A DNA stretch of 64,000 nt from Mucilaginibacter boryungensis (GTDB lineage Bacteria > Bacteroidota > Bacteroidia > Sphingobacteriales > Sphingobacteriaceae): assembly GCF_015221995.1 (NCBI RefSeq), contig NZ_JADFFM010000002.1:1488001-1552000 (forward strand). The letters run 5' to 3'. This document shows, piece by piece, positions 13,517-59,896 of the stretch (the stretch's first letter is position 1; each line of letters starts with the position of its first letter). The notes beneath the pieces are model-generated. The model worked only from the letters and a program-made list of their open reading frames with translations. It ran no database searches and was not told the origin of the DNA. The position numbers and the translations under genes were made by a program.

Positions 13517-14152
13517 CTACAAACTTATCAGTTTATTTTTTATGGCATATAATACCAGGCCAACCCGGCTTTTTATTTGTAGTTTTTCAAAAAGCTGATC
13601 GCGGTAACCATCAACCGTACGGGCGCTGATGCACATTTCATCCGCAATTTCCTTATAGGTTAATTCGGTAGCGGCCAATTTCAAAAACTCCAGTTCGCGG
13701 CTGTTTAGCTTAATCAGTTCGGGCTGCTGGTTAAAGCTGTTGATGATATGCCGGGTTACAAATTCAGGATAATAAACCTCGCCCTGCGATACCTTTTGCA
13801 ATGCTTGTTCAAACTCGTGCGGCTCGGCATCTTTAAGCAGGTAACCTTTCACGCCCATCTTTACCATTTCCAGCACTTTTTCGGCATCGCCAAACATGGA
13901 TAAGATAATAATATCGATATTGGGATAATTGGTACGCAGCCAATGTGCGGTTTGCATGCCATCCATTACCGGCATATTAATATCCAGTAAAATAATTCGG
14001 GGCATTACTTTTGGGGTAAGTTTACGTGTTAGTTCTTCGCCGTCGCCGGCCTCAAATAAAATTTCATATCCCTTGAATTCGCTTATCAGCGATGCTATAC
14101 CGCTACGAAAAAGGCGGTGATCATCACACAGTGCTATTTGAATGGGTTCCAT
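13517..14152 (-). CDS. LuxR-family (NarL-type) response regulator
   Basis: A 211-residue two-component regulator. The receiver domain spans residues ~4-120, with acidic pocket CDD (9-11), phospho-acceptor Asp57 in LLDINMP and Lys in LLKDAEP. The C-terminal LuxR helix-turn-helix (~147-205) reads LNSRELEFLKLAATE then YKEIADEMCISARTVDGYR. Its gene overlaps the end of the sensor kinase gene by 29 nt, so the two are a cognate pair. Targets are not evident from context. Confidence 0.92.
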   Translation of the reverse strand: MEPIQIALCDDHRLFRSGIASLISEFKGYEILFEAGDGEELTRKLTPKVMPRIILLDINMPVMDGMQTAHWLRTNYPNIDIIILSMFGDAEKVLEMVKMGVKGYLLKDAEPHEFEQALQKVSQGEVYYPEFVTRHIINSFNQQPELIKLNSRELEFLKLAATELTYKEIADEMCISARTVDGYRDQLFEKLQIKSRVGLVLYAIKNKLISL

Positions 14153-14972
14153 CGATGTTTAATTGTTTAAAAGGATCAAGTGTTATATTAATTATGCAGC
14201 CTTGACCGGGCGAACTTTCCAGCGTTGCCCGGGCCCCGATAAGTGCGGCCCTGCTTTCCATATTTTTTAAGCCCGATCCATTTTTATCGCCGCTCATATC
14301 GGGCGAAAAGCCAATACCATCGTCGGCAATGCGCAATGCAAAAAGGTGGGCAGAAAAGTTTAACTGGATAACCAGGTTTATAGCATGCGAATATTTTAAC
14401 GCATTGTTTAATGCTTCCTGAAAAATACGGAATAATACCAGTTCACGTTGTTCGCCTAAACTGAAGGCATCGCCGGTAACTTCCATGGTTATTTTTATCA
14501 GGCCGCTTTTGTTTACCCGCTCTATCTCAATTAGCATAGCCCGCACCAGGCCAAACTGTTTTATCTGTTGGAAACTGAGGCTTTTTGAAAGGTCGCGCAA
14601 ATCGGATATGGCCTGGGCCAGCAGGTCGCGGCTTTCGTCAATCTTACGCTGCTTTTTTTCTTCGGTTAACATAGTGGTGGTACCTAAATTTAGTTTCACA
14701 AATGAAAGTACCTGGCCAATGTTATCGTGCAGTTCCTGGCTTATATAGTTCAGGGTTTGTTCCTGAACTTCTATTTGGGTAGTTAATATTTCCTGGCTAA
14801 ATGCCGACTTTAATTGTTCCTGCTCGGTTATATGTATGGTGCGCTTTTTTTGATAAAAAAATAAAAAGCTGATGATAAATATCCCCAGCAATAGCAGCAT
14901 AATTGTGCCAGCTACGATGATGAGGATATAGTCCTGGTCCGCCTGTAACATATAAATGAAATTGCTATGCAA
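14124..14972 (-). CDS. HPK7-type sensor histidine kinase
   Basis: A 282-residue kinase with one N-terminal membrane helix (ILIIVAGTIMLLLLGIFII, ~16-34) and almost no extracellular sensor. A short coiled region leads to the HisKA_3 H-box ISQELHDNIGQVLSFVKLNL, with phospho-His82. The ATPase domain has the N-box ALNNALKYSH, DDGIGFSP and GSGLKNMESRAALIGA. Such kinases pair with NarL-type regulators, here the overlapping downstream gene. With no sensor domain, the preceding membrane protein may be the signal input (inference). The start could also be the ATG at 14951; both lie inside the upstream gene. Confidence 0.9.
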   Translation of the reverse strand: MHSNFIYMLQADQDYILIIVAGTIMLLLLGIFIISFLFFYQKKRTIHITEQEQLKSAFSQEILTTQIEVQEQTLNYISQELHDNIGQVLSFVKLNLGTTTMLTEEKKQRKIDESRDLLAQAISDLRDLSKSLSFQQIKQFGLVRAMLIEIERVNKSGLIKITMEVTGDAFSLGEQRELVLFRIFQEALNNALKYSHAINLVIQLNFSAHLFALRIADDGIGFSPDMSGDKNGSGLKNMESRAALIGARATLESSPGQGCIINITLDPFKQLNIDGTHSNSTV

Positions 14973-58269: not shown

Positions 58270-59682
58270 ATGAAAAGAATACTCATTGTTGATGATGAAG
58301 TAAATGTTGGGCTATTGCTATCCAAATTTTTAACACGCAACAATTTTGATGTAACCACGGCCAACAACGGGGCAAGCGCCATGGAGCATCTAAAAAATGG
58401 TGAGTTTGACCTGGTGCTTTGCGATTTCAGGTTGGAGGATACCGATGGGCGGCAGATGCTGATCAACATCAAAAGCAGTTATCCAAAAACGGGAGTAATT
58501 ATTATAACGGGCTATTCGGATATTAAAATGGCCGTTGAACTCATTAAAATGGGCGCGTATGATTATATCACCAAACCCCTGTACCCCGACGAAATTCTGA
58601 ACACCATTACCAAAGCCATTGAAACCCGCCATGCCCTGTTAGAGGAAGAGCCGGTGGCGGCAGCTACGCCAAAGCCCGGCAAAAAACAAGTGCTTTCGGC
58701 CGAGTTTGTGGTGGGCACCAGTAAGGCTTCAAAAGAATTATTACGGCAGATTGAATTGGTTGCTCCAACTAATTACAGCGTAATTATTATGGGTGAAAGT
58801 GGTACCGGGAAAGAATCGGTGGCTAAAAGTATCCACCTGAACAGCCCGCGTCACGATAAGCCTTTTATAGCCATGGATTGCGGCTCGTTAACCAAGGAAC
58901 TGGCCCAAAGCGAATTTTTTGGTCACGAAAAAGGCTCATTCACCGGGGCACTTTATACCAAGATCGGTCACTTTGAAATGGCTAACGGCGGGACTTTGTT
59001 TTTAGACGAAGTAGGTAATTTATCTTATGATATACAAGCCGCACTATTACGTACGGTACAAGAACGCAAAGTAAAACGGATAGGTAGTACGAAAGAGATT
59101 GATCTGGATGTGCGCATTATTGTTGCCACTAACGAAAACTTACAGGAGGGCATTCAGAAAGGCCGTTTCCGCGAAGACCTGTTTCATCGGTTTAACGAGT
59201 TTGGTATTTATTTACCGGCCCTTCGTGAACGTGGAAGCGATATCATGTTATTGTCGAACCATTTTTTAAAGATGGCCAACGATGAATTAGGGCGTAACGT
59301 CACTTCCTTTTCGCCCGAGGTTGAAGAATGCTTTTTAACCTATCGCTGGCCTGGAAATATCCGCGAATTAAAAAACGTGGTACGCCGGGCCGCTTTATTA
59401 ACCGAAGGCGATGTTGTGCAAATGAAAGCCCTGCCACTGGAAATATCCATTAATGCCAAATATAGCTCGCCAGAACCAGCTACAAATCATTATAACGAAC
59501 CGGCGCAATTAGCTAAAGAACCCAAGCACGATTTAAAAAACGCAGCCCTGGAAGCAGAATACGATACTATTTTAAAGGTACTGCGCGAGGTGAACTTTAA
59601 TAAAACAAAAGCTGCCGAGATATTACAAATAGACCGTAAGACGTTATACAATAAAATGAAAGCCATTAACTTGGGCAAGTAG
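58270..59682 (+). CDS. sigma-54-dependent response regulator (NtrC family)
   Basis: A 470-residue activator. The receiver domain is at ~1-120 with Asp52 (LVLCDFRLED) and Lys in DYITKPL. The AAA+ domain is at ~150-390 with Walker A GESGTGKES, the sigma-54 contact loop KGSFTGAL (Ser where GAFTGA has Ala) and Walker B GTLFLDEVGN. GRFREDLFHRFN and YRWPGNIRELKNVVRR follow. The C-terminal Fis-type HTH is NFNKTKAAEILQIDRKTLY. No full histidine kinase is adjacent. A bare DHp-like protein starts 4 bp after its stop. Confidence 0.93.
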   Translation: MKRILIVDDEVNVGLLLSKFLTRNNFDVTTANNGASAMEHLKNGEFDLVLCDFRLEDTDGRQMLINIKSSYPKTGVIIITGYSDIKMAVELIKMGAYDYITKPLYPDEILNTITKAIETRHALLEEEPVAAATPKPGKKQVLSAEFVVGTSKASKELLRQIELVAPTNYSVIIMGESGTGKESVAKSIHLNSPRHDKPFIAMDCGSLTKELAQSEFFGHEKGSFTGALYTKIGHFEMANGGTLFLDEVGNLSYDIQAALLRTVQERKVKRIGSTKEIDLDVRIIVATNENLQEGIQKGRFREDLFHRFNEFGIYLPALRERGSDIMLLSNHFLKMANDELGRNVTSFSPEVEECFLTYRWPGNIRELKNVVRRAALLTEGDVVQMKALPLEISINAKYSSPEPATNHYNEPAQLAKEPKHDLKNAALEAEYDTILKVLREVNFNKTKAAEILQIDRKTLYNKMKAINLGK

Positions 59683-59686
59683 CATT

Positions 59687-59896
59687 ATGGAGCCGGAAAA
59701 AAATGAAACGGTAAATATCGAAGTTATTCGCCAGCTAAGGCACGATATCCGCAACGAGCTTTCGGGTATGATATTATGTATTGAACAACTACGCTACGAA
59801 TTAGCCAACGCCCCCGAAGACCAGCAGTACTACATGAAATCCATTAGTGAGGGGTGTATACACATTGATAAGTTTTTAGACGATATAGGGTCGTAG
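59687..59896 (+). CDS. stand-alone histidine-kinase DHp (H-box) domain protein
   Basis: A 69-residue protein, not matched to any named family I know. It looks like an isolated HisKA dimerisation/phosphotransfer domain. Helix 1 is VIRQLRHDIRNELSGMILCI with H-box His19, Asp20 and, at +4, Asn23 (the position of the phosphatase-critical Thr/Asn in HisKA kinases). Helix 2 is QQYYMKSISEGCIHIDKFLD. There is no ATP-binding domain. It starts 4 bp after the NtrC-type regulator and is surely co-translated, so phosphotransfer to or phosphatase action on that regulator is a reasonable inference. Confidence 0.68.
   Translation: MEPEKNETVNIEVIRQLRHDIRNELSGMILCIEQLRYELANAPEDQQYYMKSISEGCIHIDKFLDDIGS

Follow-up and report, generated by a model that had tools for sequence, protein, structure and literature searches.

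The closest described counterparts of the gene reported here are relatives of histidine kinases that hand phosphoryl groups on without being kinases themselves. For example, Spo0B of B. subtilis is a dimeric phosphotransferase based on a DHp domain, a kinase relative without kinase activity that retains an ATPase-like C-terminal domain. ChpT and PhyT are former kinases with a degenerate ATPase domain that take phosphate from a receiver and pass it on to a regulator (PMC9981736, PMC5898713). PhyT, a membrane-bound kinase relative with a degenerate ATPase domain and an HRxxN motif, is encoded at the phyR locus beside its regulator and was first called a phosphatase, histidine phosphotransfer being shown later (PMC5898713). 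All three proteins have retained a degenerate ATPase domain, and DHps on their own are known chiefly from fragments made in the laboratory; the isolated DHps of NtrB and EnvZ, engineered pieces that carry a proline five residues after the histidine (H+5), are sufficient for phosphatase activity (PMC3510030).

The gene described here lies in Mucilaginibacter boryungensis, within a window (the whole stretch of DNA analysed) of 64,000 nucleotides. On the forward strand, an open reading frame with its ATG at 59687 and a stop codon ending at 59896 encodes a protein of 69 residues (MEPEKNETVNIEVIRQLRHDIRNELSGMILCIEQLRYELANAPEDQQYYMKSISEGCIHIDKFLDDIGS), which its translation, its match to HisKA, its conservation, and its predicted fold identify as a bare DHp (HisKA) protein, bearing H19, D20, and N23 and lacking an ATPase domain. 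It follows, after a gap of 4 nucleotides, an ntrC gene on the same strand (58270-59682, +, the stop codon ending at 59682) whose 470-residue product, the presumed partner, is a sigma-54-dependent response regulator of the NtrC type with a receiver (Response_reg, 2.6e-27), an AAA+ domain carrying GSFTGA (Sigma54_activat, 2.9e-64), and a Fis-type helix-turn-helix (HTH_8, 2.1e-10). These coordinates and the translation agree with the first-pass annotation, which had placed a 69-residue reading frame 4 bp 3' of an NtrC-type regulator. By alignment and structure prediction, the first helix, with the H-box LRHDIRNELSG, spans roughly residues 12-38 (59720-59800, +), and the second helix of the hairpin covers residues 44-66 (59816-59884, +) and ends in KFLDDIG. 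Within LRHDIRNELS (residues 17-26), residue roles established elsewhere (PMC3510030, PMC3582566) assign His19 as the phospho-acceptor, D20 as the acidic neighbor, and N23 as the phosphatase-type asparagine. When set against the general H-box, H-[E/D]-x-x-[N/T]-P, the histidine, the acidic residue, and the asparagine are invariant or nearly so among the sequences read, and the proline is replaced by Gln or Glu: E24 of the M. boryungensis protein is Gln in nearly all relatives, and most HisKA domains have Pro there.

HisKA (PF00512) is the sole meaningful Pfam match of the 69-residue protein, covering residues 12-67 with an E value of 9.1e-6 and a score of 26.1 bits, which is 0.8 bit below the cut-off of 26.9; all 32 aligned relatives match HisKA (best E 1.9e-6). 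Among frames shorter than 100 codons in the whole M. boryungensis genome, it alone matches HisKA. No HATPase_c match was found by Pfam in the protein, which sets it apart from histidine kinases. AlphaFold2 modeled the monomer as a helical hairpin (helices 5-38 and 44-66, mean pLDDT 89.2, pTM 0.70, block pLDDT 85-98 across the second helix). The first-pass reading of a HisKA-type hairpin lacking an ATPase domain is thus borne out by the H-box, the Pfam match, the monomer model, and the missing HATPase_c match. Most of the top Foldseek rows for this model were kinase DHps (7ltq, CpxA, EnvZ, and ERS1), all with E values above 0.1, and VIA-align returned many helical bundles at Z 7-9 in which DHps were mixed with unrelated helical hairpins; the predicted fold is therefore consistent with a DHp without discriminating it from other hairpins. 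When the bare-DHp profile was run against PDB sequences, no useful match emerged. The structural neighbors include the DHp co-complex of RetS and GacS (7n0e), and the DHp being a dimerization domain, the protein might pair with an intact kinase through the latter's DHp, forming a heterodimer that blocks the kinase in the manner of RetS and GacS. We consider such dimer exchange quite improbable, as it would leave unexplained both the invariance of H19 and N23 and the fact that the gene is coupled to ntrC and not to any kinase.

With the described systems the protein shares some features and lacks others. As in Spo0B, its H-box reads HDxxN followed by a residue other than proline (HDWMNKL in Spo0B), and the conserved phospho-acceptor histidine of the Spo0B/ChpT type is present as H19 in all 43 sequences; however, the degenerate ATPase-like domain of that type is absent, the DHp alone making up the 69 residues, and Spo0B differs in retaining an ATPase-like C-terminal domain. 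The SPOB_a profile matched 7 of the 32 members, all weakly (best E 0.008). ChpT and PhyT are far larger, with the degenerate ATPase domain kept. Because the domain that defines this type is absent, the protein falls outside it, although by analogy it may work in the same way, and PhyT, encoded at phyR as the bare DHp is beside ntrC, is a close precedent in logic. HPt proteins (PF01627) are also small and have the histidine phosphotransfer role that is proposed here, but they are single-chain four-helix bundles, whereas the bare DHp is a HisKA hairpin of two helices only, with no PF01627 match at the locus. The isolated NtrB and EnvZ DHps represent the same domain, in NtrB with the same class of partner, but they are engineered and carry the H+5 proline, whereas the bare DHp is a natural gene without it. 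Finally, the kinases linked to ntrC in related genera (each genus designated here by a g number), placed after it (g28 and g46) or near it (g31), have a homologous DHp but are full proteins of 498-927 residues with sensor or receiver, PAS, and ATPase domains.

The gene is conserved throughout the host genus (g1). In a survey of 60 relatives, the reading frame was found in 35 of 37 g1 genomes (M. boryungensis and 36 others), the two genomes without it being 58% and 83% complete, and an order-wide profile search recovered it in 60 g1 genomes, each frame being of 65-83 codons, with no g1 genome among the no-match genomes listed, a listing that leaves out 152 more. In all 43 loci inspected (35 measured loci, five more g1 genomes, and three genomes of the sister genus g26, giving 40 loci in g1 and three in g26), the gene lies directly 3' of ntrC, and in the 35 measured loci it is on the same strand with a gap of -11 to +7 nucleotides. 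His19 and Asn23 are invariant in the 43 sequences and residue 20 is Asp or Glu, so that the loss of His19 in orthologues, which the first-pass annotation had considered, is not seen, and the conserved pairing with ntrC that it had proposed to survey is found at every locus inspected. L25, L30, and E38 are also invariant in an alignment of 32 sequences, in which the relatives share just 24-46% identity with the M. boryungensis protein. In close pairs, dN/dS (Nei-Gojobori) was 0.09, 0.16, 0.21, 0.21, and 0.31; values of up to 0.8 occur in distant pairs, which are near saturation. At the level of sequence, the bare DHp is a real gene under purifying selection. A chance reading frame is ruled out by the 60 g1 genomes, the invariant residues, and the low dN/dS. 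A non-functional remnant of a decayed kinase would accord with descent by loss of the remaining kinase parts, but the 60 g1 genomes, the dN/dS of 0.09-0.31 in close pairs, and the invariant active-site residues refute it as far as sequence allows, and we find it scarcely credible. A search of plasmids gave no match, and a single-sequence contig scan returned one weak match (36% across 42 residues), which lies in a Clostridiales MAG (L096:4001-4105).

Orthologues of this ntrC occur in 17 of the 25 genera sampled in the family, at 54-83% identity, and the slot behind the gene differs by genus, the bare DHp occupying it in g1 and g26. In g28 and g46, a full membrane kinase (927 and 664 residues, respectively) follows ntrC directly; that of g28 combines a MASE3 sensor with PAS domains and has the DHp HEVRNPLTNVNLALEQLKLEI...FYFDIIQRNCKRINVLI. 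In g41, g36, g35, g30, g31, and some g37 and g43 genomes, the membrane kinase that follows ntrC has another type of DHp, most of these DHps reading HDLQEPLR; those of the genomes that were examined also encode, beyond this kinase, a REC-PAS-DHp protein that may or may not include an ATPase domain. In g25, g48, and some g43 genomes, a REC-PAS-DHp protein without an ATPase domain comes after ntrC, and in many genomes of g37 and g44 the slot contains no kinase. The bare-DHp profile matched the g28 kinases at E 2e-19 to 5e-18, the g46 kinase at 3e-13, and, in the same set, the g25 and g48 proteins at 6e-11 and 9e-10; REC-PAS-DHp proteins with an ATPase domain (REC-PAS-DHp-CA) were matched at 1e-14 to 1e-7. 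Where a second full kinase is present next to ntrC, the DHp has usually lost its phospho-acceptor, the histidine being replaced by N in g41, D in g36, and E in g37, and in g25 and g48, which have no second kinase adjoining ntrC, it is E and D, respectively. The rule is not absolute, as g31 has both kinases and yet its ntrC-linked DHp keeps the histidine. Most of the histidine-less REC-PAS-DHp proteins of g41 (L097, L099-L105, and L110), g36 (L038), and g37 (L108 and L109) have an intact-looking ATPase domain; they are apparent pseudokinases and possibly act as phosphatases only. The REC-PAS-DHp proteins of g25, g48, and g43 (L045, L054, L057, and L052), which lack both the ATPase domain and the histidine, mark another path, distinct from the first, by which a kinase was reduced at this position; the g48 protein has, in addition, a receiver of degenerate appearance.

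In a tree of 70 NtrC sequences, made by a quick method and with some long branches elsewhere, the bare-DHp loci form one clade (SH-aLRT 94) that requires one change, and the kinase-bearing lineages fall outside. Because these loci form a single clade, a single reduction of the partner kinase to its DHp is indicated, most simply in an ancestor common to g1 and g26 that had a full partner kinase. A search of 395 genomes of the phylum with the bare-DHp profile found no bare frame outside g1; the best outside matches, which lie beyond the family, were full kinases of about 480-520 codons, and all four of the outside kinases read contain HEVRNPLTN, one of them being encoded directly after an ntrC. 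The MASE3 (7TM) kinase had no match in 13 g1 genomes at E 1e-5, and a rerun with positive controls found just one stop-riddled stretch, in one genome. The REC-PAS-DHp-CA protein had no match in seven g1 genomes at E 1e-30, a strict cut-off that could miss a distant relative, and neither this protein nor the former 7TM kinase turned up in six or more g1 genomes or in three g26 genomes, in searches whose positive controls matched. Relocation of the partner kinase elsewhere in the genome was considered and rejected, no former kinase having been found in the g1 and g26 genomes searched while the controls were positive. Recent truncation in close relatives, raised at the outset as a counter-case, is ruled out by the presence of the gene in 60 g1 genomes, the invariant residues, and the low dN/dS; what the other genera point to is an old truncation of a full kinase. 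The earlier idea of a new small signaling component stands in that the gene encodes a bare DHp; however, the full kinases with this DHp that occupy the slot in other genera of the family mark it as a cut-down kinase and not as a component of separate origin.

No kinase accompanies the pair in M. boryungensis: a whole-genome profile search with 59 HATPase_c matches found none within about 45 kb of the bare DHp, in keeping with the initial description of a regulator without a neighboring kinase. The closest match, about 45 kb away at C2:1502175 (window 14175), belongs to the nearest histidine-kinase ATPase domain (14175-14441, -), in a frame of 298 codons adjoined by a receiver protein of 213 codons (13799-14137, -), and the two look like a separate two-component pair. 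This bears on the idea of a split kinase, in which the ATPase domain of another histidine kinase phosphorylates the bare DHp in trans and the phosphoryl group then reaches NtrC. The isolated EnvZ DHp is trans-phosphorylated by the EnvZ ATPase domain, which speaks for such an arrangement; DHp-ATPase pairing is normally specific, which speaks against it, as does the lack of a lone ATPase partner nearby. Even with the histidine and the acidic residue at H+1, which autophosphorylation needs (PMC3510030), both being kept, we judge a split kinase improbable.

Our best explanation as a whole, which we put forward tentatively, is that the bare DHp is a minimal histidine phosphotransferase for NtrC, exchanging phosphoryl groups between H19 and the receiver. 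By descent it is the former partner kinase of NtrC minus its sensor and ATPase parts, kept directly behind ntrC and probably co-transcribed with it. As a homodimer, it would form a four-helix bundle and, as descent and gene coupling lead us to infer, dock on the NtrC receiver, and phosphoryl groups would pass between His19 and the receiver aspartate in the manner of Spo0B, ChpT, and PhyT. The donor could be another receiver, e.g. in one of some ten hybrid kinases that the genome encodes, or alternatively an ATPase domain supplied in trans by a different kinase; reverse transfer, or N23, could also drain NtrC~P. Outside very long HTCS-type frames, M. boryungensis has about ten hybrid-kinase frames but one HPt match, so that receivers in need of a shuttle may be available, which is suggestive only.

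The main rival to the phosphotransferase reading, and one that we regard as rather unlikely, is a dedicated NtrC phosphatase, in which the dimer docks on NtrC~P, N23 positions the hydrolytic water, and phosphorylation is left to another kinase or acetyl phosphate. N23 is invariant in 43 of 43 sequences, CrdS, among others, requires the asparagine at H+4 for its phosphatase activity (PMC3510030), and in sister genera this DHp has remained associated with ntrC despite losing its histidine or its ATPase domain, as would fit a role other than that of a kinase. On the other hand, the H+5 position, a proline in ancestral-type kinases, is occupied by Gln in almost every bare DHp and by Glu in that of M. 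boryungensis, and replacing the proline abolished phosphatase activity in VicK while leaving the autokinase nearly intact (P222A; PMC3582566) and weakened the phosphatase in CrdS (P376A; PMC3510030). A phosphatase would, moreover, have no need of the histidine or of the acidic residue at H+1, yet both are kept throughout, whereas sister lineages lose the histidine. Because the histidine is never lost in bare DHps and usually lost where a second kinase remains, phosphate is suggested still to pass through H19, and the residue pattern favors phosphotransfer over a pure phosphatase. Counting against phosphotransfer, the isolated NtrB and EnvZ DHps act as phosphatases unaided (PMC3510030), N23, the residue used by HisKA phosphatases, appears just as invariant as H19, the kept histidine could serve a phosphatase activity that it enhances though it is not required, and Spo0B, ChpT, and PhyT, if taken as models, all retain an ATPase-like domain.

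It is likely, in our estimation, that a partner kinase was reduced once to a phospho-acceptor hairpin of 69 residues, a genus-old, ATPase-free phosphotransferase or phosphatase module for NtrC that constitutes an undescribed family. The HisKA/DHp domain is already known; the open-access literature that was searched yielded no description of a natural DHp gene that is conserved, ATPase-free, and coupled to NtrC, and the earlier remark that no named family was known for such a protein seems to hold within that literature. Evolution appears to have made and retained the kind of bare DHp otherwise produced in the laboratory. Living relatives span the stages of a full kinase, a histidine-less kinase, a histidine-less protein without an ATPase domain, and a bare DHp with its histidine, a natural series that may tell which parts of a kinase a regulator really needs. 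The system is also very small, and relay and phosphatase roles are separable in it by H19 and N23 mutants.

The gene 3' of the bare DHp in M. boryungensis encodes an esterase on the opposite strand, an arrangement that is unusual among the relatives. In most g1 loci (e.g. L021 and L012), ntrC and the bare DHp are followed on the same strand by a gene for an AI-2E-family transporter (PF01594, 6e-38), and such a transporter gene also lies 3' of ntrC in g37 and g44.
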